DNA of 13,167 nt from Methanobacteriota archaeon. Its GTDB lineage: Archaea > Halobacteriota > Bog-38 > Methanoflorentales > Methanoflorentaceae. Location of the stretch: positions 1-13,167 of the forward strand of contig PMYA01000004.1 in NCBI GenBank assembly GCA_003170935.1. Direction: 5' to 3'. Shown in pieces: positions 1 through 13,167 of the stretch (positions are counted from its first letter, which is position 1; each line of letters starts with the position of its first letter). A model generated the notes under the pieces. That model was not told the origin of the DNA and did no database searches. It worked only from the letters and a program-made list of their open reading frames with translations. A program made the position numbers and the translations under genes.

Positions 1-25
1 TTAAAAACTCGTACCTGGAGGTTTT

Positions 26-631
26 ATGGTCAATGTAATGATTGCGACGGTTGGTTTTGAGTCCGAACCCCTGATCATCGGCATCCAGAATTTTAATATC
101 AAGAGAATGATCCTGATTCGAGAGGTGGCCCCCCCTTCAGAGGTTAAGAAGGTCGAGAACCTTATGGCGTCCACCTTTGGAAACGTCATCGACATCGAAA
201 TCAAGGAGGTCGATAACTGGTATGACATACTCAGCTTGGTGGACCTCGTCACCTACCTGATCAAGAGCGAGTATGACAAAAACAACCAGGTCTTCGTTAA
301 CATCACAGGCGGGCGAAAGACCGCCTCAATAGGCGCCTTGTTGGGCGTTTTTAAGAACGTGGACAAGGTCAAAGAGGTCTTTTACGTCACTGAGGAGGAG
401 CACGGCATAATGCCGCTGCCTAAGATCTCGTGGACGCTGCAACGGACTAAATACAACCTGCTAAAGATGATTTCTGAAGGCATGAGCGATATCGAGGTGC
501 TTAAGGAAGAACTTGAGATAAGCAGAACGATGACGTATACGCACCTTCGTGACCTTAAGGATCAAGCGCTGATTGTGGAAACCCCTAACGGGTACGAACT
601 AACGTTAGCAGGGAAACTGCTGCTCATATAA
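26..631 (+). CDS. csa3: Csa3-like CARF/winged-helix transcription regulator
   Basis: A 201-residue protein with the two-part layout of Csa3, a CRISPR-associated regulator that senses cyclic oligoadenylate through a CARF domain and binds DNA through a C-terminal winged helix. Residues 1 to about 130 form the Rossmann-like CARF part: an N-terminal strand ending in TVGFE (residues 8-12) and the second ligand-loop motif NITGGRK (92-98), followed by a small-residue helix. Residues about 141-201 give a winged helix, with a recognition-helix-like stretch near 164-178 and a wing around PNGYELT. Length fits the family. The start is chosen because GGAGG at 17-21 sits four bases upstream of the ATG; the next Met (residue 5) lies too far from it. 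No cas gene or repeat array follows, so it may control the downstream helicase-nuclease gene or a cas locus left of the window. Family assignment is good; the regulon is inference. Confidence 0.8.
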   Translation: MVNVMIATVGFESEPLIIGIQNFNIKRMILIREVAPPSEVKKVENLMASTFGNVIDIEIKEVDNWYDILSLVDLVTYLIKSEYDKNNQVFVNITGGRKTASIGALLGVFKNVDKVKEVFYVTEEEHGIMPLPKISWTLQRTKYNLLKMISEGMSDIEVLKEELEISRTMTYTHLRDLKDQALIVETPNGYELTLAGKLLLI

Positions 632-682
632 CACAGTTAACACAAAACCATTAAAGAAAAATTGAAGCATAACGCTCTTAAG

Positions 683-690
683 TCTATATC
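683..690 (+). promoter_or_regulatory. TATA-like box of the helicase-nuclease gene (leaderless start)
   Basis: The sequence TCTATATC in the 80-base gap after the csa3-like gene is centred 25 bases before ATG 712 and 28 before ATG 715. That is the spacing at which an archaeal TATA box places transcription directly at the start codon. No Shine-Dalgarno sequence precedes either ATG, consistent with a leaderless mRNA. This suggests the helicase gene can be transcribed independently of the regulator gene. Confidence 0.5.
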
Positions 691-711
691 ATACCTTTCC
701 ACGTGTTTCTC

Positions 712-3700
712 ATGATGCTCAATCCCTCTCAACAGGAAGCTGTCGAAGAAGACGGCATTCAACTCATTATTGCCGGTCCCGGGTCAGGAAAAACCCGGGT
801 GGTAACAGAAAAGATCTTGCACCTCATTAAAAATGGCGTCAAACCGCAGAGCATCCTTGCCCTCACGTTCTCTGATAAAGCGGCTGCTGAAATGCTCGAG
901 CGACTCGAGCAGTACATTGACCCCTCTGACATCACGGCTGGCACATTCCACTCGTTTTGTCTTGAGGTGCTGCACGATAACGTCTTAGACTCTGGCATCA
1001 GCTTTGCCTCCGGCATCATTAGCAGGACGAACCAACTGGTTTGGGCGCTGCGCAACATCGACGCTTTCGGGTTTGAGGAGATCGAAATCGGCAATAATGC
1101 TGTAGAAGTCGTCGAATCGATCATTGAGGGGATCAGCGCTTTTAGAGATGAGCTTATCACTCCGAAAGAACTTGAGGAGTATCTCAAGCGCAAAGACGGC
1201 GAGAAGCTCGAAATACCCGAGCGGACCTACCTCAACCAACTTGACGATCTCCTCAAGGTGTACAAAGCATATGCCGCATACAAGCGGAAAGAGCGGCTCC
1301 TCGACTTTGACGACATGATTCTCGAGGCCTCTGCCGTCTTCGACCGGAAGCCCGCACTATTGCAGCAGTACCGCGACCGCTACACCCACGTCCTTGTCGA
1401 TGAGTTTCAGGACACGAACTACGCGCAGCTGTATCTCATCAACCAGCTTGCCGGAGACAACGTCTGCGTCGTCGGGGATGACGACCAGTCCATCTATCGG
1501 TTCAGGGGCGCGTATCTGACCAGCTTTAACGACTTTAAAGAACGCTTTGAACGCTGCAAGGAAACGCTGCTTGACATCAACTATCGAAACTCGGGTAACA
1601 TTCTAACGTGTGCCCTCCAGCTGATGAGCAGTGCACCTAACCGCGAGGAAAAACCGCTGGTGACGCACAACGTGGATGGAGACAAGGTCATCGTCGCGCG
1701 TTGTGAAAACGAGCAGGCGGAAGCCCAGTTTGTATGGCAGGAAATCGAGCGAATCGTAGGCACGACGTTCGTCTCTTCAGATGGAGACGAGGTCACCCTC
1801 ACGTACCGGGACATTGCCGTCCTCAGCAGGCGTCGCGTAGAAGGGGTCAAATTTTACGCCGCGTTGCGTAAACGCGGGATTCCTTGTGAGTTTGTCGGTG
1901 AGGTGGACTTCTTTTCGACTGCCGTTATTCGTGACGCTTTAGCATACCTGCACATCATCGAGAATCCTTTAAAAGCAGGCGTCTACCTCAATCGCATCTT
2001 GAAGCTGTCCGGCATCACCGAAGTGAACGTGCAGCGGCTTAATACGTGCGCAGAGCGCTTGGCATGGGACGACGATTCGAGCGATTTCATATATGAGTGC
2101 ATGCTCGACGTTGAGAACCAACTCGACGCTCAAGTGGACCACGTACGCGAGGTTGCTCGCACTATAGAGCAGCTGCTGCAACGAAAGGACCGTTTAACGC
2201 TTTCCGAGCTTGTCTATGATCTCCTTGTGCGTTCGACGGATTTGTACAAGCGGAGCTTCCATCAGAAGAACTGGCGTGACGCGCAGCTCCTTAACAAACT
2301 GTACGAAATTGCGCAGGAGTATGAGTCTATAACGAAGCATCCGTCGGTCGCCGATTTTCTCGACTACCTTGACCTCCTCAGCGGGTTCCAAATAGAGCTC
2401 GAAGAGCCAGAGGAGACGGATAGCGTCAAAGTGATGACCGTTCACCAAAGCAAGGGAAAGGAGTTCAAGGTCGTTTTTGTCGTAGACGCGGCGACAAACC
2501 GGTTTCCGTTGCGGTATCAGCAGAAGCCGTTTTACGTGCCAAATGACCTCGCAAAGGGGCTTATGACAGGGGACGATGAAAAGGCGCTTTATGAACAGGA
2601 GGAGCGCCGTCTCTTTTTCGTGGCGATGACGCGGGCCGAACAGAAGCTTTATTTGACCTTCGCGGAGCGGTATGGCCAGAACGTCAGGCAGACGAAACCG
2701 TCAAAGTTTCTTGACGAGCTTCAGTTTGAAGGTAATCCGCGGATCGACGTGAAGGACGTGTGCGACGAGTCAGAACAGGATTTCCGAACAGTTGAAAGTG
2801 TTGTCGAACAAGCGAAGACCCTCCTTCAAGATCAGGCTATTCGAGCGATTCAGAATATGCAGCCAAAGACGGCAATCCAAAAGATCATCGAGCTCGAGAA
2901 ACTCCGCATCCTTGAGAGTGGGGGACATCTTGAAGATTTTAAACTGCCGTCTATCACGTGTGAAGCCAGCGACACAGAGCTGCGTCGGCTTTTTGAGGGA
3001 AAGCACACACCCCTGATAAGTGAGGATCATCACTTTTCGGCATCTGCCCTTCAAACCTTTGACAACTGTCCAATGCAGTACAAATTCAGTTACGTCTTGC
3101 GGATCCCCACCGCAGGAAAGACGTACTTCAATCTTGGAGGCGCGGTTCACGAGGTTATCGAGAACCTCACAAGACAAGAACTCGAAGGAATTCCGCCAAC
3201 TAAGGAAACAGCGCTCGCGATGCTCGAACAATTCTGGTCATCTGATGCTTACGCGTCAAAAAAGAAAGAACGCGAGGATAAGGAGCTCGCGGAGCAAATG
3301 ATTGACACTTACCTTGGCTGGCACTCGCAAAACGAAAACGAGGTTCTTGACGTCGAGATGAAGTTTGCGTTTGACCTCAGCGATCGTATTGTCAAGGGGT
3401 TTATAGACCGGGTTGAGCGGACCCCTGAAGGAAATTATGTAGTAATCGACTTCAAAACTGGTTATCAGTCGGAAACGAAGAATAGCATCAAAGAGAACAT
3501 ACAGATGAACGTTTACTGCCTTGCCATCCTCGAGAAGTTTGGCGCTCTTCCACGTAGAGCGTCGCTCTTTTACGTTAAGCACGAAAAAATGGTAGACTAC
3601 GTTCCCGACAATGAGCAGCTCGAAAAACAGAAAACGCGATTAACAAGTATGATCGATGCGGTTCTTCTGGAACGATTTCCCGGAAGCCCAGCGTACCAAA

Positions 3701-3759
3701 CGTGTCGATTCTGTGATTACGAAGCCCTCTGTGAAGAGAAGGAAATTAATGAAGTCTAG
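712..3759 (+). CDS. UvrD-family helicase fused to RecB/AddB-like Fe-S nuclease
   Basis: A superfamily 1A DNA helicase joined to a nuclease, a layout like the AdnA/AddB subunits that process double-strand breaks. From ATG 712 it has about 1,015 residues. Helicase motifs run in order: Q motif LNPSQQEAV, Walker A AGPGSGKT (21-28), TFHSF, Walker B VDEFQD (229-234), GDDDQSIYRFRGA (about 255-267), TVHQSKGKEF (about 576-585) and FVAMTRAEQKL with the arginine finger near R641. The C-terminal 240 residues form a PD-(D/E)XK domain: H813, D899 in GFIDR, D913 and K915 in IDFKTG, then QMNVYC. Cysteines C786, C998, C1001 and C1007 follow the C-x(n)-C-x2-C-x5-C pattern of the AddB/Cas4 4Fe-4S cluster. All catalytic residues are present, so motor and nuclease should both work. 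A GTG at 703 is also in frame, but the TATA spacing and the family N-terminus favour ATG 712 or 715. Likely role is DNA end resection or defence; no partner subunit is visible. Confidence 0.88.
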   Translation: MMLNPSQQEAVEEDGIQLIIAGPGSGKTRVVTEKILHLIKNGVKPQSILALTFSDKAAAEMLERLEQYIDPSDITAGTFHSFCLEVLHDNVLDSGISFASGIISRTNQLVWALRNIDAFGFEEIEIGNNAVEVVESIIEGISAFRDELITPKELEEYLKRKDGEKLEIPERTYLNQLDDLLKVYKAYAAYKRKERLLDFDDMILEASAVFDRKPALLQQYRDRYTHVLVDEFQDTNYAQLYLINQLAGDNVCVVGDDDQSIYRFRGAYLTSFNDFKERFERCKETLLDINYRNSGNILTCALQLMSSAPNREEKPLVTHNVDGDKVIVARCENEQAEAQFVWQEIERIVGTTFVSSDGDEVTLTYRDIAVLSRRRVEGVKFYAALRKRGIPCEFVGEVDFFSTAVIRDALAYLHIIENPLKAGVYLNRILKLSGITEVNVQRLNTCAERLAWDDDSSDFIYECMLDVENQLDAQVDHVREVARTIEQLLQRKDRLTLSELVYDLLVRSTDLYKRSFHQKNWRDAQLLNKLYEIAQEYESITKHPSVADFLDYLDLLSGFQIELEEPEETDSVKVMTVHQSKGKEFKVVFVVDAATNRFPLRYQQKPFYVPNDLAKGLMTGDDEKALYEQEERRLFFVAMTRAEQKLYLTFAERYGQNVRQTKPSKFLDELQFEGNPRIDVKDVCDESEQDFRTVESVVEQAKTLLQDQAIRAIQNMQPKTAIQKIIELEKLRILESGGHLEDFKLPSITCEASDTELRRLFEGKHTPLISEDHHFSASALQTFDNCPMQYKFSYVLRIPTAGKTYFNLGGAVHEVIENLTRQELEGIPPTKETALAMLEQFWSSDAYASKKKEREDKELAEQMIDTYLGWHSQNENEVLDVEMKFAFDLSDRIVKGFIDRVERTPEGNYVVIDFKTGYQSETKNSIKENIQMNVYCLAILEKFGALPRRASLFYVKHEKMVDYVPDNEQLEKQKTRLTSMIDAVLLERFPGSPAYQTCRFCDYEALCEEKEINEV

Positions 3760-3905
3760 CATTTGGACAAGCGCGGGATGAGACTGTTCGTCGCATCAAT
3801 AAGCCGTTATTATGTGAGGTAGCAAAAACCACTAGAAAAACAAATCGTCAGTTCTTCGTTATAACTCGGTCGATTATGACATCGCCTTTACACATCACTC
3901 ACCAC

Positions 3906-3912
3906 TTTTTTT
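3906..3912 (+). terminator. Possible T-run terminator after the helicase gene
   Basis: Seven consecutive T residues lie about 150 bases past the helicase stop codon. Archaeal transcription often ends at such T-tracts without a hairpin. The distance from the stop is long and there is no supporting structure directly before it, so confidence is low. Confidence 0.25.
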
Positions 3913-4058
3913 CACTAATCTGTCATGATGGGCTACTAACAAAGCGATCAATAAAGAATCTGAAGACCCACATTGGTTGTCAACATCGCCTATCAAATGG
4001 GAACCTGCAGGGTTAGAATCGCTCTATCAAGCCTGCATAAAAATGCTTGGCCTTGAAT

Positions 4059-4080
4059 GCATCCACATGAGGATGCTTTT
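4059..4080 (+). terminator. Hairpin plus T-run, terminator-like
   Basis: GCATCC (4059-4064) and GGATGC (4071-4076) form a perfect six-base-pair stem with a six-base loop, followed at once by TTTT (4077-4080). It looks like an intrinsic terminator on the + strand, upstream of the CHAT gene promoter. What transcript it would end is unclear: either the far end of the helicase mRNA or a short RNA begun inside the gap. Confidence 0.35.
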
Positions 4081-4121
4081 ACCTTCTACCTTACACAGCT
4101 GAACAGATCTACAAAACAAGG

Positions 4122-4129
4122 TATTTATA
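4122..4129 (+). promoter_or_regulatory. Candidate TATA box of the CHAT cassette
   Basis: TATTTATA lies about 100 bases before the CHAT gene start. Transcription would begin near 4150 and leave a leader of about 75 bases, followed by the weak G-rich ribosome site CGGGGGCG at 4207-4214. No better TATA element lies closer at the right spacing. Confidence 0.3.
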
Positions 4130-4225
4130 CGACGTGCAGCCAAACTGAATTAATTTAGACGCCACTAAAATACTCATGGTAGCACGAAAGTAAGGGTATC
4201 GTTCCTCGGGGGCGAATATAAGACG

Positions 4226-7200
4226 ATGAAACTTCGTGACTTTTTTGGTAAGAAGGATAAGGGGGTAGATAGCCTCGTAAATCATCTTATAGCATCAGTA
4301 ACCGCGAATAACACGGCCGAGCTTGGAGATACGATTGCGAAGCTACGCATAGTGACAAACGAGACACCACCCGATGTCTCATCATTGGATGTGCCCGTTG
4401 CTCTCGCATGTGGGCTTTTGTATCGATATTATGCAACGCTGGACCGTGCCGACCTCACAGAAGCTATCTCAAAGTGGAATGAAGTGGTGAATGTTCCCCA
4501 GCAAGACGCTTCTGACCTGCCTCGCAGGTTGAGTATCTTGGGCAACAGCCGGCTTGAACAAAGTCAGTACACAGGACTCACCGACATAGAGGGTGCCATA
4601 TCGAACTATCGCCAAGCGACGGCTCTTGAATCAATAAGTGCTATGGACCTGCGATATAACCTAAACGCGCTGAGCCTCTTGCTCGTACAGCACTATGAGA
4701 GCACAAACGACCTTACCAATCTTTACGAAGCGATCACGTGCAGGGAGAGAGCGCTCAGTATGGCCCCACAACTCTTTGACGTAGCTGATCTTCGCAGTCG
4801 GTCGCCTATGACTGCCATGGGAGTGCCACGGCACCCCATTAAAACTCTCGCCGATGTAGAAGCGGCTGTTTTGTTCCGTGGCAGGTCACCTGAGATTGCC
4901 GCTCCAGATTCTCTCTTCCAAAATCCTTTCCTTGACTTATCGGAGATGTATTACACTTTAAACAGCGCTCTTTTTGAGAAATACAAGCACACGCGTGACA
5001 TTACCTATATTGACCGAATCGTTTCAACACGAGAAGCTCTTAGCAAAGTTCCAAAAAGTTCTCGTTATCTGCCTTATTGGCAGTTAAGCATAGGCGAGAG
5101 TTTACGTAACCGTTACGATTATGCAGGTGATCCTGAAGACCTCGAGGCGGCTATTTCAATCCTCAATGAAGCACTGAACTCTGTCAATGCAGATTTTCCG
5201 GACATCGCTGACATTCGTACAAGGTTAGCTACAGTTTTAGGGATGCGATACGACCTTGCAGGCGATCCTGAAGACCTCGAGGCGGCTATTTCACTTCTTG
5301 ATGAGGCATTAAAATCTGTTAAGCCAGATTCCCCTCAGTTACCTTGGATACAGCAAATAATGGCCTCTACGTTGCAAGCTCGCTACGAAGCTATAGGCGA
5401 TGAGCTGGATCTCGAGGCTGCCATATCGTACAATGAAAGCGCAGTGAACCTCACTGAAGAAGGTTCCGATCAATTGGCACTTAGGCTAAGCAGCCTTGGC
5501 GACACCTTGAGTATGCGATATGCGCGTAAAGGCGATGTGAAAGATCTCAGCGAGGCTACTTCGAGATATAAGCGGTCATTCGATTTAACCTCCGCTGATG
5601 ATCCTCGCATGCCGACGGAGCTTACCAGAATCGGATTGATGGCCGAAAAACGATATGATCGCACACAAGATCTCAAAGATCTAAAGGGAGCTGCATCCTA
5701 TCTGGACAGGGCTCTCAACATTACTCCAAAAAACTCTCCAGAAATGCCGGGTCGTCTCTACAATGTGGGTAGAATCAAGCTTGGTCTCTATGAAAGAACG
5801 CAAGAAACGTCAGATCTTGAGGATGCCATCTCTAACGATCGCGAAGCAGTTCGAATTATCCCTGCGGATGCTCCACATGGTTCCGATGCGCGAGAACAAC
5901 TTGCTCAGGCGCTTCGTTTACGGTATTTAACAATGCACGATACTACGGATCTTAGGGAGGCTTTTAGCGTTCTGAGAGAAGCTGTCATAGGATCAGATCG
6001 CGTTTTCGCTGTTGTGTCGGTAGACTACAAACTTGGAGAACGTCGACATAAAGGTGGCATTGACTACGAAATGGTTGCTACAGCATTACAGCTGGGACGG
6101 CTTCAGCAACCAGAGCAACGTCTTGAATGCTTTAAGGAAGCGTTACTCGGTGCGGAAGGAGCTAAGTCCCGCATTCTCACCGAGCTCTTAGGGAGGGGGA
6201 GTGTTCCTGCACCGCCTTCTGTGCCTCAGGATCTCGCAGAAAAAGAAGCAAACCTGGTCAAGAAACTGATCCAGATGGATAGCCAAGACCTTGCTACCGT
6301 AGGTAACTCTCGGCATATCGCTCCAGTAGGTATATCGCCTATAGCTAAGGGTCTGAATACGTCTGAGTCTACGCGGGCCGCTCTAAGAAAAGAGTGCATA
6401 GCAGCTCTCGAGAAGGTCTGGGTCGCTATGGAAAAATACCCTAACGCTACCGAGTTCGTCGCCCTTCGCCGCGGCAGCAAGCCCGCCTGGAGCGAGCTTT
6501 TGCAGCTAGCTGAAGAAGCTGGTAACGAGACTGTCTTCATCTCTACGCTTACATTCTCGGATCAGATGGTGTTTTTCGTAATGCGAGCAGGCTGGAAAGG
6601 TCCAAAAGTCGCAAGCGTTCCATTTGACAGGGCGCGCCAGCAATTCCTACTACGACAATTTGAGCGTGAGGTATATAGATACGATCCTACGACCGGGCGC
6701 AAAGAGACTTGGCAGCACTTGATCGCTCCGCTGTTAGATGAAATTGTAAAGCATTTGAAAGACGTGAAACAGGTTGTTTTTTCTCCAGATGGATTCGGAT
6801 ATCTGATCCCTTGGTCGGCAGCATTGCAGAAAGCAGGAAGGGACCTTAGTTGGAGTATCACCCCTTCATTTGGCAGCTCTATCCGTCTCTTGGAACGACG
6901 TGCGCTTGATCTGAAAGATAGCTTAGTCGTGGGTAATCCTAAAGGGGATCTGTCTAATGCAGAGCAGGAGGCGAATGTCGTCGCTGAATTGTTTAAAAGC
7001 GGACCGCCTCTTATAGGCCGAGAAGCGGCAAAAGAAGAAGTACTGAGACGGCTGCCAACTGCGCGAATTGCCCATTTTGCGACACACGCTTACTTCGATC
7101 CTACAGATCCACTAAACTCGGGAATCGTCCTAGCAGATGGGATATTGACTGCACGCGAAATTATGGGTTTAGAGATCAGTCCAGACCTTCTAACCCTCTC

Positions 7201-7510
7201 TGCGTGTGAAACAGGAATAACAGCGACCTTAGGCGGAAATGAAATGGCCGGTATTACTCAAGCCTTCCTTCAAGCGGGCGCAACTTCTCTACTAGTAAGC
7301 TTGTGGAGAATCAACGATCCCGCGTCTGCAGCACTTATGGGTCGGTTTTACACGTGCATAAACAAAGGTTGTAACAGAGCAGATGCGCTCAAAAAAGCTA
7401 TGGCTAACGTTCGAATTGACACATCTTGGAAAGATACATACTACTGGGGTGCTTTCACGCTCGTTGGAAACTGGCAGGGTGGGAAAGAATGCACCGAACA
7501 AGAGAACTGA
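4226..7510 (+). CDS. TPR-CHAT caspase-like protease
   Basis: A 1,094-residue protein with a long helical repeat region and a C-terminal CHAT domain, the caspase/separase-related cysteine protease fold. Residues about 60-600 hold roughly eleven degenerate TPR-type units, period near 45 residues, with core RYxxxGDxxDLExAI. This is the long-period type common before CHAT domains. The CHAT domain starts near residue 735 (LRRGSKPAWSELL) and runs to about 1088. The catalytic histidine is H954 in HFATHAYF and the catalytic cysteine C994 in LSACETG, followed by the usual AFLQAGATSLLVSLW and YYWGAFTLVG blocks. The dyad is intact, so it should be an active protease. No signal peptide or membrane segment is seen, so it is probably cytoplasmic. 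The next gene starts 26 bases downstream in the same direction, so the two are probably co-transcribed. CHAT proteases of known systems cut partner proteins such as Csx30 or bacterial gasdermins; the target here is unknown. Confidence 0.88.
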   Translation: MKLRDFFGKKDKGVDSLVNHLIASVTANNTAELGDTIAKLRIVTNETPPDVSSLDVPVALACGLLYRYYATLDRADLTEAISKWNEVVNVPQQDASDLPRRLSILGNSRLEQSQYTGLTDIEGAISNYRQATALESISAMDLRYNLNALSLLLVQHYESTNDLTNLYEAITCRERALSMAPQLFDVADLRSRSPMTAMGVPRHPIKTLADVEAAVLFRGRSPEIAAPDSLFQNPFLDLSEMYYTLNSALFEKYKHTRDITYIDRIVSTREALSKVPKSSRYLPYWQLSIGESLRNRYDYAGDPEDLEAAISILNEALNSVNADFPDIADIRTRLATVLGMRYDLAGDPEDLEAAISLLDEALKSVKPDSPQLPWIQQIMASTLQARYEAIGDELDLEAAISYNESAVNLTEEGSDQLALRLSSLGDTLSMRYARKGDVKDLSEATSRYKRSFDLTSADDPRMPTELTRIGLMAEKRYDRTQDLKDLKGAASYLDRALNITPKNSPEMPGRLYNVGRIKLGLYERTQETSDLEDAISNDREAVRIIPADAPHGSDAREQLAQALRLRYLTMHDTTDLREAFSVLREAVIGSDRVFAVVSVDYKLGERRHKGGIDYEMVATALQLGRLQQPEQRLECFKEALLGAEGAKSRILTELLGRGSVPAPPSVPQDLAEKEANLVKKLIQMDSQDLATVGNSRHIAPVGISPIAKGLNTSESTRAALRKECIAALEKVWVAMEKYPNATEFVALRRGSKPAWSELLQLAEEAGNETVFISTLTFSDQMVFFVMRAGWKGPKVASVPFDRARQQFLLRQFEREVYRYDPTTGRKETWQHLIAPLLDEIVKHLKDVKQVVFSPDGFGYLIPWSAALQKAGRDLSWSITPSFGSSIRLLERRALDLKDSLVVGNPKGDLSNAEQEANVVAELFKSGPPLIGREAAKEEVLRRLPTARIAHFATHAYFDPTDPLNSGIVLADGILTAREIMGLEISPDLLTLSACETGITATLGGNEMAGITQAFLQAGATSLLVSLWRINDPASAALMGRFYTCINKGCNRADALKKAMANVRIDTSWKDTYYWGAFTLVGNWQGGKECTEQEN
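5123..5293 (+). repeat. Near-identical 36-base duplication inside the CHAT repeat region
   Basis: Bases 5123-5158 and 5258-5293 are the same apart from one silent change (GGT versus GGC) and lie exactly 135 bases (45 codons) apart. Both encode the core AGDPEDLEAAIS of neighbouring TPR-like units, while the other units of the gene have diverged strongly. This points to a recent unit duplication or local gene conversion. Confidence 0.8.
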
Positions 7511-7536
7511 TGTGCTAAACACTACTGAGGGAGAAG

Positions 7537-8289
7537 ATGTGGCTAAAAACAACTGATACTATTGAGAATGTCTTATGGGAAGCGCCACTCGTGCCGGCGC
7601 TTAATCATGAGTCAATGCGGACGACTTTGACGAGAGGGGATTACGAGAGCTTCCAAGAGGAGTGCCAAGAAATTCAGAAAGAGCCCCCAACTGCTACGAT
7701 AGGAAAGCCAGAAAAGTGGACGATGGAAGAGTTTTTCTCTCCTTCTGAGCTACCACGAGAAGTCAAATCCAGGTTAGACAAAGAAGATTACTATTTGATA
7801 CAATTGAAGTGCTCTTTGCGGCCCAAAGAAAGTGTACAAATCGACTCGGCTCAATTTAGTGTTGAACTCCACTCCGACGAGAGCGGTCGGCAGCCTGTTG
7901 CCTTTGATTTATACCCTAAAGAAGTTGTTCAAGAGGTTAAAAGGACGCATAATGTGACTCTCAGTCCATCACTTAATTTCATTCCTGCGGTAGGTATCAA
8001 AGGTAGTGTGGGATGGGGCATCGAATATACTTCTTTGGAGCCGATGGTGGTTGCGTGTGGTGACGGAGAGCCATGCCCAACGTGGAACTACGAGCAAGTA
8101 ATAGGTGTGAAATTGCAAGGAAGTAAGAAGATGTTCCTCGTGGTTCAAGCACCAAAAGGAATGATGTCGATTCGCACTACCTTGCGCTTGGTCGCTGACT
8201 TGAAGAAGGGTAGGTTTACGGTTCCAGTAATAATGCGTAAACCTGAACCAGCGAAGGCGAAGCCCCTAGAAGTCGATTTACTAGAATAA
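7537..8289 (+). CDS. Uncharacterised 250-residue protein in the CHAT cassette
   Basis: I do not recognise the family. The start is supported by GAGGGAG at 7527-7533 just before the ATG, 26 bases after the CHAT gene stop. Residues 1-80 are polar and partly helical, with many acidic residues. Residues 85-230 look beta-rich, with alternating hydrophobic strands, a LYPKEV segment (126-131), a glycine-rich VGIKGSVGWGIEY (152-164), and CGDGEPCPTW (174-183), whose two cysteines are five residues apart and might bind metal or pair. The C-terminus is a charged, proline-rich tail (KPEPAKAKP). There is no signal peptide or clear membrane helix. Its place right after a CHAT protease makes it a candidate partner or cleavage target; that is inference from position. 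It does not resemble bacterial gasdermins in its N-terminus. The following ORF begins on its stop codon. Confidence 0.8.
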   Translation: MWLKTTDTIENVLWEAPLVPALNHESMRTTLTRGDYESFQEECQEIQKEPPTATIGKPEKWTMEEFFSPSELPREVKSRLDKEDYYLIQLKCSLRPKESVQIDSAQFSVELHSDESGRQPVAFDLYPKEVVQEVKRTHNVTLSPSLNFIPAVGIKGSVGWGIEYTSLEPMVVACGDGEPCPTWNYEQVIGVKLQGSKKMFLVVQAPKGMMSIRTTLRLVADLKKGRFTVPVIMRKPEPAKAKPLEVDLLE

Positions 8290-8492
8290 TGAAGAACAAA
8301 TTCAACATCATCGAACCCCAGAAGATTGAAGTGGAATTCGGGCTTACGAAAAAGCCGGGCGAGCTTAGAGGCCAACTATCGGATCACGATGATATGGGAA
8401 AAATTGTAGGTGAGCTAAATGAGCACGTGGAACGACAAAGGGATGAGTCTGAGCAGCTTAGGGCGCGACGAAGAAGCCATCGACTGTTATAA
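8289..8492 (+). CDS. Small coupled ORF, possibly real or part of a frameshifted N-terminus
   Basis: Its ATG overlaps the stop of the previous gene by one base (TAATG), a classic arrangement for translational coupling; no ribosome site of its own is seen. The 67-residue product is highly charged. The first 43 or so residues are unique sequence. The rest (EHVERQ to the end) is only an alternate-frame reading of the first TPR unit of the next gene, which it overlaps by 74 bases. Two readings are possible: a small real protein, or the original N-terminal extension of the TPR protein now separated by a frame change near 8418. No domain is recognisable. Confidence 0.4.
   Translation: MKNKFNIIEPQKIEVEFGLTKKPGELRGQLSDHDDMGKIVGELNEHVERQRDESEQLRARRRSHRLL
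8408..8413 (+). promoter_or_regulatory. Ribosome binding site of the TPR-repeat gene
   Basis: GGTGAG/AGGTGA lies five to six bases before ATG 8419, and an in-frame TAA sits directly before that ATG. Together they fix the start of the TPR protein here rather than further upstream, despite the overlap with the preceding small ORF. Confidence 0.6.
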
Positions 8493-10041
8493 TAAAGCTC
8501 TTGCGATCGATCCGGGCGACGTGGATGCGTGGAACAACAAAGGAGTTAGCCTTAGCAACTTGAGACGCTCAGAAGAAGCTATCGGCTGTTATGATAAGGC
8601 CCTCGCAATTAATGCGGACCAGGCGGGTGTGTGGCATAACAAGGGCATTAGCCTTGACCACTTAGGGCGCGACGAAGAAGCTATCGACTGTTATAATAAA
8701 GCTCTTGCGATCGATCCGCGCCTCGCGAGTGCGTGGTATAATAAGGGCGTTAGCCTTGACCACTTAGGACGCTCAGAAGAAGCCGTCGACTGCTTCGACA
8801 GAGGGCTTACAATCGATCCGGGCGACGTGGATGCGTGGAACAACAAAGGAGTTAGCCTTGGCCGCTTAGGGCGCTTCGAAGAGGCTATAAACTGTTATGA
8901 CAAGGTCGTTGTAATTACTCTTGACAACGCGAATGGCTGGTATAACAAGGGAAATTGTCTGAGCAGCTTAGGGCGCGATGAAGAAGCTATCGGCTGTTAT
9001 GATAAGGCTCTTGCGATCGATCCGCGCCTCGCGAGTGCGTGGTACACTAAGGGCAGGATTCTTGACCACTTAGGACGCTCAGAAGAAGCCGTCGACTGCT
9101 TTGACAGAGCCCTCAAAATCGATCCGGACTATGTGGATGCGTGGAAATACAAGGGAATTAGCCTTGGCGACTTACAATGCTACGAAAAAGCCGTGCACTG
9201 TTACGACAAGGCCCTCACTATCGATCCAAGCGATGTGGCTTCGTGGGACAACAAGGGAGTTAATCTTAGTAACTTAGGACGCTACGAAGAAGCGATTGAT
9301 TGTTTCGATAAGGCCCTCGCTATCGATCCGAGCAATGTTGCTGCGTGGAACTACAAGGGAGCTAGCCTTAACTATTTAGGACGCTACGAAGAAGCTTTAG
9401 GCTTTTATGACAGAGCCCTCAAAATCGATCCAGGCGATGCTGGTACATGGAACAACAAAGGGGCTAGCCTTAACTATTTAGGACGCTACGAAGAAGCCAT
9501 CGAGTGTTCCGACAAGGCCCTCGCAGTCGATCTGGGCTTCGCAAATGCGTGGTACAACAAGGGAGCTAGCCTTAACTATTTAGGACGCTACGAAGAAGCC
9601 GTCGAGTGTTTTGACAGAGCCTCGACAATCGATCCGGACTATGTGGATACGTGGAACTACAAGGGAATTAGCCTTGGCAACTTAGGGCGCTATGAAGAAG
9701 CTTTAGGATGTTACGACAAGGCCCTCGCAGTCGATCTAAGCAATGTGACTGCGCTGGACAACAAGGGAGCTAGCCTTAGCAACTTAGGACGCTACGAAGA
9801 AGCCGTCGACTGTTTCGATAAGGCCCTCGCGATTACTTCCGGGGACGCGAGTGTGTGGAATTACAAGGGAGCTAGCCTTGGCAACTTAGGACGCTACGAA
9901 GAAGCCGTCGAGTGTTTTGACAGAGCCCTCAAAATCGATCCGGACTATGTGGATGCGTGGAACTACAAGGGACTAAGCCTACAGAAACTTGGTCGTCTTA
10001 AGGAAGCTAAGAATTGTTTTGAGAAGGCAGGCGCCTCATAG
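8419..10041 (+). CDS. Protein of sixteen tandem TPR units
   Basis: All 540 residues are accounted for by three leading residues, fifteen TPR units of exactly 34 residues and a sixteenth partial unit of 27. The consensus is WNNKGxSLxxLGRYEEA followed by xxCYDKALAIDPxxxxA, the canonical TPR helix pair. There is no insertion, signal peptide, membrane segment or catalytic domain, so it is a pure superhelical protein-binding scaffold, probably cytoplasmic. Most units keep tryptophan at position 1 and a cysteine in helix B, giving an unusually cysteine-rich TPR. The last unit has a changed, more polar sequence typical of a capping helix. A good ribosome site supports the start. It is the fourth ORF of a same-strand run begun by the CHAT gene, suggesting it presents or senses a partner for that cassette; similar proteins are common in Methanosarcinales and can also stand alone. 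Confidence 0.88.
   Translation: MSTWNDKGMSLSSLGRDEEAIDCYNKALAIDPGDVDAWNNKGVSLSNLRRSEEAIGCYDKALAINADQAGVWHNKGISLDHLGRDEEAIDCYNKALAIDPRLASAWYNKGVSLDHLGRSEEAVDCFDRGLTIDPGDVDAWNNKGVSLGRLGRFEEAINCYDKVVVITLDNANGWYNKGNCLSSLGRDEEAIGCYDKALAIDPRLASAWYTKGRILDHLGRSEEAVDCFDRALKIDPDYVDAWKYKGISLGDLQCYEKAVHCYDKALTIDPSDVASWDNKGVNLSNLGRYEEAIDCFDKALAIDPSNVAAWNYKGASLNYLGRYEEALGFYDRALKIDPGDAGTWNNKGASLNYLGRYEEAIECSDKALAVDLGFANAWYNKGASLNYLGRYEEAVECFDRASTIDPDYVDTWNYKGISLGNLGRYEEALGCYDKALAVDLSNVTALDNKGASLSNLGRYEEAVDCFDKALAITSGDASVWNYKGASLGNLGRYEEAVECFDRALKIDPDYVDAWNYKGLSLQKLGRLKEAKNCFEKAGAS
8428..10038 (+). repeat. 102-base tandem repeat with 306-base and 510-base higher order
   Basis: The DNA of the TPR gene repeats every 102 bases without length change. 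Longer-range copies stand out: the sequence from 8707 recurs from 9013 (306 bases, three units) with IDPRLASAWY, that from 8515 recurs from 8821 (again 306), and GAGCAGCTTAGGGCGCGA at 8451 recurs at 8961 (510 bases, five units). In the protein, units 12 and 15 also match at a three-unit distance. Many stretches are alike at synonymous sites, which indicates recent expansion or recombination. Confidence 0.9.
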
Positions 10042-10133
10042 TCATAACCTAGGCATTGTTGTTAAGACGTACGATTGGTTCTGCATTAACGTCGGTATGT
10101 ACTTACGGTCATGCCGACTCGACTTATTGTCTA

Positions 10134-10139
10134 TTTTTT
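10134..10139 (+). terminator. T-run terminator of the CHAT/TPR cassette
   Basis: A T-rich tract, TTATTGTCTATTTTTTC, ends in six T residues about 95 bases after the TPR stop codon. It fits an archaeal T-tract terminator and would close the transcript of the CHAT cassette. Confidence 0.4.
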
Positions 10140-10143
10140 CTGA

Positions 10144-10160
10144 AAATGTTCTGAACATTT
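10144..10160. promoter_or_regulatory. 17-base perfect odd palindrome, operator-like
   Basis: AAATGTTC-T-GAACATTT is a perfect inverted repeat with eight-base arms around one central base. The single-base centre is typical of a site for a dimeric DNA-binding protein rather than an RNA hairpin, although as RNA it could form a seven-pair stem. It lies just after the presumed terminator of the TPR gene. No gene start follows closely enough to assign it. Confidence 0.45.
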
Positions 10161-10216
10161 CGCGGACTAGACCTTAATGACTAAATCGATCAAACGTGCA
10201 CCGTGGAGCCCTCGCG

Positions 10217-10246
10217 TTCCTAGTGGTTGTCTCACCCGCTAGGGAA
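10217..10246. other. Imperfect inverted repeat / hairpin
   Basis: TTCCTAGTGG (10217-10226) pairs with CCGCTAGGGAA (10236-10246) through ten base pairs, with one bulged G and one G-U pair, around a nine-base loop. No T-run follows on either strand, so it is not a standard terminator. Function unknown. Confidence 0.4.
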
Positions 10247-10432
10247 GCGGCAGAAAAAGTGCGACTTAATCTAAAGATGCCAAAATGAACGCCAAATAGC
10301 CCTTCTTTACACGGTGAAGTTGGATGATAAATGATGACGGCTCGAGTGTAGTTGCAGATACTTTCGAAGGATGTAAGTAGTAAGTTGTATTGGAAGGCTA
10401 TTATGGAGCAGCAACGATCAGTATCAGCCACA

Positions 10433-10439
10433 TATATAA
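10433..10439 (+). promoter_or_regulatory. TATA-like box in the intergenic region
   Basis: TATATAA within CACATATATAAG is a strong match to an archaeal TATA box. Transcription would start near 10462, two bases before the G-rich GAGTGGGG and 14 before an ATG at 10476. Confidence 0.35.
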
Positions 10440-10475
10440 GTGCTGTAAAGGTCTCACGAGGCCGAGTGGGGAACC

Positions 10476-10556
10476 ATGTTTACCCAACGCTGCGACTGCC
10501 GGAATCACTTGGCCAACTACGTCAAATGCTTCCATGTGTTACCCCAATTTGTTTAA
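10476..10556 (+). CDS. Possible 26-residue cysteine-rich small protein
   Basis: A very short ORF that has all expected signals at reasonable spacing: TATATAA at 10433-10439, a G-rich ribosome site GAGTGGGG at 10464-10471, then the ATG. The product carries C6, C8, H11, C18 and H20, which could bind a metal. Its end overlaps the 3' end of nurA on the other strand by 18 bases. ORFs this short occur often by chance, so this is a weak call based on the signals rather than on any known family. Confidence 0.22.
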   Translation: MFTQRCDCRNHLANYVKCFHVLPQFV

Positions 10557-11651
10557 AAGACCGTGGGCGTCCACAGCCTTCGCATGTCTATAAAATTTCT
10601 CCCAATTTCCCATCGCTGCCATTTGCGAGCGAAGTATCGTAAAATAATGCTCACGATCAGCACTTGTAACCCGCGCAAAGCGGTCGGCATCGATGAGCCC
10701 ATATGGATATCCAGGGAACGTGAAATCCGTCGAATTTCGCACGAGCTGTGTGAGTACCTCATTAAGTTCACGTTCGTCGAGTGACAGAAATTGATCTCTT
10801 TGGATCTCTAATCGAAATATTCGCTCTGAAATCGCGTTGAGCTTAACGCCGAGAATGAAAACGAAGTGATCTTTGCTTGTACCGTCCGCTATGGGATAGT
10901 ACCATTCTGAGGTGATACCCTTTTCAGCTGCGAGCTTATCAAGTGCCCCGAGAAGGGAGTAGCCCGTGTCAGTGAAAAGCGCGCTTGTCTTAGAAAGTCC
11001 TGCGAGAATGACACCTTTTTCCTGAGCTACTTGGCTGAGCTCGTCCAAATAAGCATACTCATTTGGAAACGCCGTTTGAAGGGTGCCGTCAAGTAACAGT
11101 AAGTCGCCAGGTGCAAGCTCATTTTCAACGACGCTCTTTGCAAGCACGAGCTCCGAGAATCGTCGTGAGATAGAGCCGACCCTGTAAATGTCCGCGCGTT
11201 GGTTACCGACGGTGATTGAACGATCCATCGAGCTAAAAGAAAGGTCACGTTCGCGCGGGAGACTGACCCCTTCGCTAGAAAGTGGGAAAAGCTCAGTGCT
11301 GTACTGAATCTCTCCTCTTTCGAAGTCAGAATATGTCGCCGCGAAGAACTCGGTCCGTTTAGGGATTGACCGTTCAGGTATCCTTCTATTTCCGCTCCAC
11401 ATTCCAAAATAGACACGGTTCAGTTGGACTGAAAAGTTGGGGGCTCCGAAGACTTCTTGATTGCCGCCATCAACGAACGCGGTTTTCCTGTCAGAATCGA
11501 CGTGTTGGACTATCTTGAATCCATCAGTCGTCAGCGGGAAAGGCCTTACGCCTCGCTCAGGAAAAAACGGGTTGCCTATGCGCTCATCGTTGAGGTGGGA
11601 ATCCAAGCGTTTAATAAGCTCGTTGGCAATTTGTGAAGTTTCCTTCTTCAT
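10539..11651 (-). CDS. nurA: NurA 5'-3' exonuclease, DNA end resection
   Basis: A NurA-family nuclease of 370 residues. In archaea NurA works with the HerA translocase, Mre11 and Rad50 to resect double-strand breaks. The N-terminal metal motif is TAFVDGGNQ (D61) and the second is LLLDGTLQ (D188). Further family signatures are AGLSKTSAL, YPIAD with KDHFVFILGVKLN, and the C-terminal FPGYPYGLIDADRFAR. Length is normal and the catalytic acids are present. A TTG 24 bases upstream is also in frame, but ATG 11651 has a short AGGTC ribosome site just before it and a TATA-like TTTTTACA at 11684-11691 at suitable distance, so I take the ATG. herA, usually next to nurA, is absent from the window. The gene converges on the TPR gene and shares no operon with it. 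Confidence 0.88.
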   Translation of the reverse strand: MKKETSQIANELIKRLDSHLNDERIGNPFFPERGVRPFPLTTDGFKIVQHVDSDRKTAFVDGGNQEVFGAPNFSVQLNRVYFGMWSGNRRIPERSIPKRTEFFAATYSDFERGEIQYSTELFPLSSEGVSLPRERDLSFSSMDRSITVGNQRADIYRVGSISRRFSELVLAKSVVENELAPGDLLLLDGTLQTAFPNEYAYLDELSQVAQEKGVILAGLSKTSALFTDTGYSLLGALDKLAAEKGITSEWYYPIADGTSKDHFVFILGVKLNAISERIFRLEIQRDQFLSLDERELNEVLTQLVRNSTDFTFPGYPYGLIDADRFARVTSADREHYFTILRSQMAAMGNWEKFYRHAKAVDAHGLLNKLG

Positions 11652-12097
11652 TTTAAGACCTGACGGAGACGACAACGCGTTATGAGTGTAAAAATTGACA
11701 ACAGGACTTAGTCTTACTATTACTTGCTATTGTCGAGTTTGTAGTGCAGATTCGGCATATGTGCGCGAATCTTGTCATAACTTCCAATTTATGTGTCAGT
11801 CGCCGGGAATAATATATGCCCCCTAGATGCACCCCGAAAGTGTTTAGCTGTTAAGCTGACGCTTTGTTAAAAGTATTGCAGCTTTGTCGACCTCTGCGAC
11901 TGTTTGCGCTTTCAAGTCGCTGGGACCAGCTCCACCACGTAACCCGGACGTTGGTGCTTGGATGCATGTTCTCCGTGGTGATACTTACACAAACGACCGG
12001 AATTGGCATGCCGCGTTACACGTTAAGGTGCTTCAAGCTCAACGTTGCCCGATACGTGGAAACCATTCGCCAACCCTTTTAATCTCACCGCCTATGC
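11652..12097. other. Intergenic region upstream of nurA, no gene seen
   Basis: About 450 bases between the two - strand genes. The nurA side holds the TATA-like TTTTTACA (- strand, 11684-11691), and an AATATAT lies at 11811-11817, readable as a TATA box in either direction. ORFs on the + strand here have TTG-type starts, no ribosome site, and run on into sequence antisense to the nuclease gene, so I do not call them. No terminator hairpin is evident downstream of the nuclease gene. Confidence 0.45.
11684..11691 (-). promoter_or_regulatory. Candidate TATA box of nurA
   Basis: Read on the - strand this is TTTTTACA. A transcript starting about 26 bases downstream, near 11662, would leave a leader of about ten bases before ATG 11651, just enough to contain the AGGTC ribosome site. 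It would exclude the upstream TTG as the start. Confidence 0.35.
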
Positions 12098-12775
12098 TTA
12101 CGATGCAGAACCTACGCTCCACAGACCGAGATGCGCTTGCTGCGCCTGTAACTGAGCATCGTAAAACAGCCCCTCGCACGATATGTCAGGTTTATACGGC
12201 GTTGCCTTCGCGTACCCCTCTCGAACGAGTTCGTAGTTCACAAGCACGTTGCCCACAAACACGAAGCGAAGCAACCGCCCGAACTGGTCAGTTTCAGAGA
12301 CGTCTTTGACCAGTGTAACCGTTTTGCCGGCGACCAGCTCCTTGTCCCGTGCGGTGGCTTCAGGACCAAGCCGTTCTTTCTTCGTCGTATCCTCAGGGGC
12401 GTTTATACCGATGTACCGCACTTTGTAATCCACGCCGTTAATGAGAACGTGGATCGTATCCCCATCAATGACCTTCGTCACCACCCCGACTGATGTGCGA
12501 TCGGTCGTTTCGTGGATGCACGGGAAGCTCGTTCCAACGGTGAGCGGGGCAGACGGCGTGGTCGTGCTCCGAGGAGCTGCCGTCGGTGTGGCTAAAGGTT
12601 GTGTGTTTGTGGCGGCTCCGTTTGAGTCACTCGCAACGGAAGCCGTTGGAAGCTCCGACGGTGCGTTTGTAGGCTGAATCGCGTTGTTCACGACTTTCTG
12701 ATCGCTGCATCCGCAGACAGATATAATGAGCGCTAATGCAAGTATCGCGTAAAAAGCGGGCCTGATGCCCTTCAT
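12098..12775 (-). CDS. Lipid-anchored staphylococcal nuclease-like protein
   Basis: A 225-residue secreted nuclease (thermonuclease/SNase family), which cuts DNA and RNA with calcium. The N-terminus has a short basic stretch and a hydrophobic segment, ending in VCGC, a lipobox-like site that would place a lipid on C23. A Ser/Thr/Pro/Ala-rich linker follows (about 24-85), then the SNase domain (about 95-222). Active-site residues R120 in KVRYIG, E128 in NAPE and R167 in GRLL correspond to R35, E43 and R87 of the staphylococcal enzyme. Of the metal ligands, D106 in IDGDT is kept, while the second is N125 instead of Asp. C86 and C200 could form a disulfide outside the cell. A TTG seven codons upstream is in frame, but ATG 12775 lies 28 bases from the TATA box and starts with a proper signal sequence. 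Likely job is nucleic-acid scavenging at the cell surface. Confidence 0.87.
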   Translation of the reverse strand: MKGIRPAFYAILALALIISVCGCSDQKVVNNAIQPTNAPSELPTASVASDSNGAATNTQPLATPTAAPRSTTTPSAPLTVGTSFPCIHETTDRTSVGVVTKVIDGDTIHVLINGVDYKVRYIGINAPEDTTKKERLGPEATARDKELVAGKTVTLVKDVSETDQFGRLLRFVFVGNVLVNYELVREGYAKATPYKPDISCEGLFYDAQLQAQQAHLGLWSVGSAS

Positions 12776-13167
12776 AAGTAGAAAGAGAACGGTCAATGGC
12801 TTATAACGTTTTCCTTAACAGCGACACCGTTGCTAGAGCCGGTTACGTCAACGCGCGGTCCGAAGCCGCCCTGCGCGCAGGCTGCAAATCGGAAGTTCTG
12901 CGCGAATGAAATTCGCGGTGGGGCAAATCAATCGCTTAAAAACATTCACCCGTGGTGTACTGCGCCGTCAAAGAGCGGCAACACGTGTCGCAAGAATGCC
13001 GCCCCTTACGCTCGTGTTAATCGTTTTTTATAGCATTTCTTCCGGAACTCATAAACGATAATTGCATCCACAAGAAAGCCCGACTTATTATTATCAGACG
13101 CCGTCACGTCATGCAACCTTGCATCACTGCAACTGGCAGCCGCTAATTGCCGGTAGCTGCCTATTTC
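12776..13167. other. Upstream region of the nuclease gene, no gene seen
   Basis: About 390 bases to the window end without a convincing gene. It holds the TATA box of the nuclease gene, a palindrome CGCGAAT-GAA-ATTCGCG (12901-12917), the eight-base palindrome ACACGTGT (12981-12988), a second strong TATA-like CTATAAAAAA on the - strand (13024-13033) with no gene start in range, ATGCAA-CC-TTGCAT (13111-13124), and GGCAGC/GCTGCC (13135-13140, 13156-13161). The one + strand ORF drawn here starts at TTG without a ribosome site. Confidence 0.45.
12801..12806 (-). promoter_or_regulatory. TATA box of the SNase-like gene (leaderless start)
   Basis: TTATAA, in the - strand context GTTATAAGC, is centred 28 bases upstream of ATG 12775, and no Shine-Dalgarno site lies between. 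This matches a leaderless or nearly leaderless archaeal promoter and decides between the ATG and the upstream TTG, which would lie before the transcript start. Confidence 0.55.

Follow-up and report, generated by a model that had tools for sequence, protein, structure and literature searches.

A CHAT protease gene beside a predicted hemolysin-fold protein in an archaeal defence slot: a possible counterpart of gasdermin systems

Gasdermin systems, found in bacteria, archaea and fungi, place the gene of a pore-former beside that of a caspase-like or CHAT protease (excerpts of PMC9612521 and PMC12881547). The subject here is a gene pair in a 13,167-nucleotide stretch of a Methanobacteriota archaeon (assembly GCA_003170935.1, contig PMYA01000004.1, positions 1 to 13,167, called the window), in which a CHAT protease gene is followed on the same strand by the gene of a 250-residue protein with a predicted hemolysin fold. 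As in the gasdermin systems of those excerpts, a small partner gene stands beside a caspase-fold protease with sensor-like regions, an arrangement found in 14 of the 21 places compared, and a pore triggered by cleavage is proposed. The partner differs in that its listed structural matches are hemolysins and that none of the 66 family members matches a gasdermin Pfam model. The pairing of a protease with a predicted pore-former that lacks an export signal suggests a gasdermin-like self-destruct device built on a different fold. The basis for this reading is the adjacency across domains of life, the catalytic residues, the predicted fold, the lack of export-like segments and the place in a defence slot.

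4226..7510, + strand: CHAT (caspase-like) protease of 1094 residues, recognised by Pfam PF12770, catalytic motifs and repeat period
7537..8289, + strand: 250-residue predicted hemolysin-fold pore-former, with a candidate stem hairpin at about 138-167 and candidate protease-sensitive linkers in the variable residues 21-50 and 231-240

The hemolysin/leukocidin family is defined by secretion, and exported hemolysins carry an export signal. Unlike these toxins, the 250-residue family has no Pfam hemolysin match and no export signal, and lies beside a caspase-fold protease. Craspase, the type III-E CRISPR system with the TPR-CHAT protease Csx29, also combines TPR-like repeats and CHAT with a neighbouring likely substrate, but the Csx29 model gives 20.9 bits here against a cut-off of 300 and no type III-E effector is present among the 7 window open reading frames (ORFs) scanned. 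Trypco and the caspase/alpha-beta-hydrolase pairs of NTP-dependent conflict systems are prokaryotic peptidases with a dedicated co-occurring partner gene (excerpt of PMC7159879, in whose text neither hemolysin nor leukocidin occurs), whereas in the window the partner matches no Pfam model and the ORFs scanned show no vWA-MoxR core. CARD-NLR systems have lytic effectors triggered by a peptidase, and in some variants gasdermin is replaced by phospholipases or endonucleases, but these replacements lack a hemolysin fold (excerpt of PMC13236601). A CHAT or prokaryotic caspase paired with a hemolysin-fold partner was not found among the matches listed from the open literature, although a description elsewhere is possible, nor does it appear in excerpts of PMC13236601, PMC7159879, PMC9612521, PMC12881547 and PMC9558359.

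Pairing of the 250-residue family with caspase-fold proteases

The CHAT domain occupies residues 829-1082 of the protease (PF12770, E 2.5e-55, 188.4 bits against a curated cut-off of 24), and both catalytic residues are present, H954 within the motif HFATHA and C994 within LSACET. Residues 61-640 have a 45-residue repeat period (5.8 standard deviations, with 90 residues at 4.7), so TPR-like is a fair label for the N-terminal half. The original prediction had called this half TPR, which agrees with the repeats but not with the Pfam TPR models, none of which exceeds its cut-off there. It was right about the coordinates and residues of this part of the window, namely the intact H954 and C994, the gap of 26 bases between the two genes (7510 to 7537), and the overlap of one base between the stop of the 250-residue gene and the start of a 67-codon ORF, all on one strand. 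PADLOC gave only weak BovA matches for the CHAT protein (best E 5.6e-5, 20.3 bits).

The 21 places compared are the window, three loci on genome contigs, one Paraburkholderia phymatum plasmid and further places from genome searches. In all 14 with an adjacent caspase-fold protease the two genes share a strand, and the protease comes first in 11 and second in three (L015, L034 and L069). Thirteen have a CHAT gene directly adjacent (the window, L003, L005, L012, L015, L016, L017, L034, L069, L070, L071, L073 and L075), and in L004 the adjacent protease gene is a C14 caspase gene that shares four bases with the family gene. A simple gene-count model, in which the window is included and a density of 0.9 genes per kb is assumed, gives 0.027 adjacencies expected by chance among 13, and nine were observed (P about 5e-23; 11 genomes or records with CHAT and C14 counts). 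In the window genome, in the plasmid record and in the Anaerolineae genome, no CHAT or C14 gene was found other than the one adjacent to the family gene. The sensor part of the protease varies, being made of TPR repeats or of a WD40 propeller (L012), and STAND-like ATPase matches occur in L034 (NB-ARC just over its cut-off, others below) and L069 (below cut-off). In L004 (7169-9448), the protein beside the family member is a fusion of a caspase C14 domain with an EAL-type domain (Pfam E 6.1e-21).

Other neighbourhoods were also observed. L013 and L014 hold family members without a nearby protease gene, in two related archaeal genomes. Directly downstream of the second family copy of the Anaerolineae genome lies a protein of 847 residues (L033:9616-12159), which has no Pfam match at E <= 0.05 and might be another kind of partner. 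In L035 (8614-13841) an S9 peptidase follows the family member, and a protein with C14, HEAT and FGE-sulfatase regions lies three genes away.

The 250-residue protein has no match in Pfam, NCBIfam or PADLOC. A search with its single sequence found 6 clusters, its own included; the alignment of these found 114 clusters at E <= 0.01, and the wider family alignment found 119 at E <= 0.001, of which 113 were new. The few named clusters belong to Ktedonobacteraceae, Theionarchaea, Bathyarchaeota, Nitrososphaeraceae and Methylomirabilis. The family is rare in whole genomes, with members in 5 of 392 from the phylum of the window (a narrower profile found the same 5), 4 of 400 from the Ktedonobacter phylum and 10 of 396 from the class of Anaerolineae bacterium Ch132. 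It was not found in the 6 same-genus genomes searched (61-90% complete), which makes the cassette an accessory one. Conservation of the pairing is seen between distant hosts and not within the genus; the original prediction had named as contrary signs a family mostly without a CHAT gene, which the 14 of 21 places do not bear out, and neighbours not conserved even in close relatives, which holds for the genus and not for distant hosts. A viral or plasmid origin was considered and rejected: the family alignment A2 found no relative in viral contigs, and one query found none in phage records. One of 72,556 plasmid records carries a family member.

Predicted fold of the 250-residue protein

The model of the 250-residue protein appears to contain the beta-sandwich, rim and stem of the hemolysin/leukocidin fold, and the protein very probably has this fold, as judged from predicted structure. 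No gasdermin is present among the structural matches listed, and the BFVD viral structures gave no match at E <= 0.001. At the sequence level, a link to hemolysins was sought and rejected, as no Pfam model for hemolysins or leukocidins matches any of the 66 family members at E <= 1 and a profile search found no hemolysin sequence in the PDB; because there is no sequence match, the protein is described only as sharing a predicted fold and not as a hemolysin-family member. No export signal or transmembrane segment was found in the 66 members by hydropathy, which is a simple test and not a signal-peptide program; the top mean over 19 residues near the N-terminus is 1.18, and no value above 1.6 occurs anywhere.

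Residues 138-148 and 158-167 alternate between polar and hydrophobic around G156, which is invariant in alignment A2. This alternation fits a membrane hairpin and is consistent rather than decisive, because core strands alternate as strongly; the strands near 211-221 and 87-95 reach equal or higher scores, so that the alternation was rejected as proof that a stem exists. In a second model of the protein, pLDDT is below 50 at residues 130-145 and 154-173. The most variable stretches of the family are residues 21-50 and 231-240, which would be the likeliest places for family-specific cleavage.

Proposed mechanism and alternative readings

On balance, the two genes probably form a defence module in which the CHAT protease frees the 250-residue pore-former, so that the infected cell is killed or stalled. 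The intruder would be sensed by the repeats in the N-terminal half of the CHAT protein, and the protease, through H954 and C994, would cut its 250-residue neighbour, most plausibly in residues 21-50 or 231-240. Cutting would free the protein to oligomerise, the amphipathic hairpin at about 138-167 would swing out as a beta-barrel in the membrane of its own cell, and the resulting pore would kill or stall that cell. Sensing is more likely to lie within the protease itself, in the TPR, WD40 or STAND-like regions fused to CHAT. As far as the evidence goes, the CHAT pair may work like a gasdermin system, of which it is not a proven member. The 250-residue protein had been predicted to be a substrate or effector, and its conservation beside a caspase-fold protease and its predicted pore-forming fold support this as the best reading.

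Several observations weaken the count of adjacent pairs or speak against the pairing. An adjacent protease is missing in seven places (L013, L014, L033, L035, L068, L072 and L074); the genome G388 lacks CHAT and C14 genes altogether, and G171 has one CHAT gene far from the family gene, so both count against a pairing. Two pairs of places come from close relatives, K. racemifer (L003) with K. robiniae (L005) and G388 with G171 (L013 and L014), and adjacency falls to 13 of 19 when one of each pair is counted. The CHAT gene is split over frames or contains a stop in L003, L017 and L073, as is the family gene in L017 and L074, and the CHAT genes of L070 and L071 extend to contig ends. Three of the seven places (L068, L072 and L074) were tested for CHAT with a four-sequence profile and in a few chosen ORFs, and C14 was not sought there; the family locus of L068 ends at the contig end, the family copy in L074 is degenerate, and the neighbour in L072 is a STAND-TPR-like protein interrupted by the contig end.

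The absent sequence link to known pore-formers, the low TM-scores of the structural matches and the weaker second model would suit a regulator, adaptor or inhibitor of the protease, its beta-sandwich holding the CHAT or caspase protein inactive or recruiting substrates; the hemolysin-like shape would then be that of a general beta-sandwich that forms no pore. This role, which is possible and rather unlikely, would yield the same adjacency, and dedicated partner genes co-occur with some prokaryotic peptidases, as in the Trypco families (excerpt of PMC7159879). It is improbable that the protein is a pore-former activated without cleavage, which CHAT removes or leaves alone while acting elsewhere, or that it is a weapon aimed at other cells and released at lysis. 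Staphylococcal hemolysins do not require proteolysis and the copies in L013 and L014 have no adjacent protease, but the close pairing of the family with caspase-fold proteases of two classes and the 66 members without an export signal argue against such a role.

Two reading frames follow the pair:

8289..8492, + strand: 67-codon ORF, a doubtful gene that overlaps both neighbours and has no convincing relative in 20 loci
8419..10041, + strand: TPR protein of 540 residues, assigned by Pfam and probably a bystander

The larger is a pure TPR array, as predicted (Pfam TPR_1 E 5.9e-159, 16 stretches). Its predicted role as sensor or adaptor was not borne out and it was rejected as a conserved part, with no tblastn match at E <= 1e-3 in the 20 other loci. 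The 67-codon ORF was rejected likewise, having two matches of 20-22 residues in the same loci (E 0.39 and 0.81, at chance level); its final third overlaps the TPR gene, and it may not be a gene. A smaller set of loci held no match to either frame. A four-gene cassette with the TPR protein as dedicated sensor or adaptor of the pair, to which the common strand and the 129 bases between the end of the 250-residue gene and the start of the TPR gene would point, is thus highly improbable, since neither frame has a convincing relative in those loci.

The wider form of the defence module, a gasdermin-independent executioner of archaea and bacteria in which an intracellular hemolysin-fold pore-former is gated by interchangeable proteases (TPR-CHAT, WD40-CHAT, CHAT-STAND and C14), has in our judgement an even chance of being correct. 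If it is, unrelated pore folds gave rise on at least two occasions to caspase-triggered lytic cell death, and there are cytosolic relatives of the exported hemolysins that serve defence. To our knowledge, gasdermins are the pore-formers that prokaryotic immunity links to caspase-like proteases, and a second, unrelated pore fold in their place would make a protease beside a dormant pore a recurring design. It would also assign a function to a family for which searches of Pfam, NCBIfam and PADLOC gave no model, and it offers a directly testable pair in archaea and bacteria, with one protease and one candidate substrate.

Defence slot and flanking genes

The window belongs to a genome of 1.79 Mb that is 77% complete. 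In 3 genomes of its phylum the archaeal models for SSU and LSU rRNA score best within their clans, so the host is taken as archaeal by phylum; an SSU search, which also gave signals in bacterial controls, had hits in 3 of 7 genomes and none in the fragmented genome of the window. The pair and its two followers lie between two nuclease genes:

703..3759, + strand: UvrD helicase with a PD-(D/E)XK nuclease, assigned by Pfam; a border of the defence slot that is conserved within the genus
10539..11675, - strand: NurA nuclease on the other flank (Pfam PF09376), 87-89% identical in two same-genus genomes

In three contigs of two same-genus genomes, the UvrD-nuclease gene is followed by a type I restriction-modification system (L049), by BREX with BrxC, PglX, PglZ and BrxL (L050) and by Dnd (L053), as annotated by a PADLOC scan of 10 ORFs. 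The CHAT pair thus occupies the position that known defence systems hold in these relatives. On the other side, NurA is followed in L049, L051 and L052 by HerA/Mre11/Rad50-like genes (N-termini, named by inspection); in the window it is separated from such genes, and homology to the relatives stops at 10529, on the 3' side of NurA. Promoter and terminator scans gave sites no more numerous than in shuffled sequence, and no CRISPR effector was found among the 7 ORFs scanned.

Near the start of the window (26-631) a Csa3-like CARF-HTH regulator is encoded (NCBIfam cas_HTH, 70.6 bits, cut-off 60.2), which could link cyclic-nucleotide signals to the defence slot. Near its end (12098-12796) lies an SNase-like protein with a lipoprotein-like N-terminus, to which pieces in L050 and L052, two loci from the same genus, are related.
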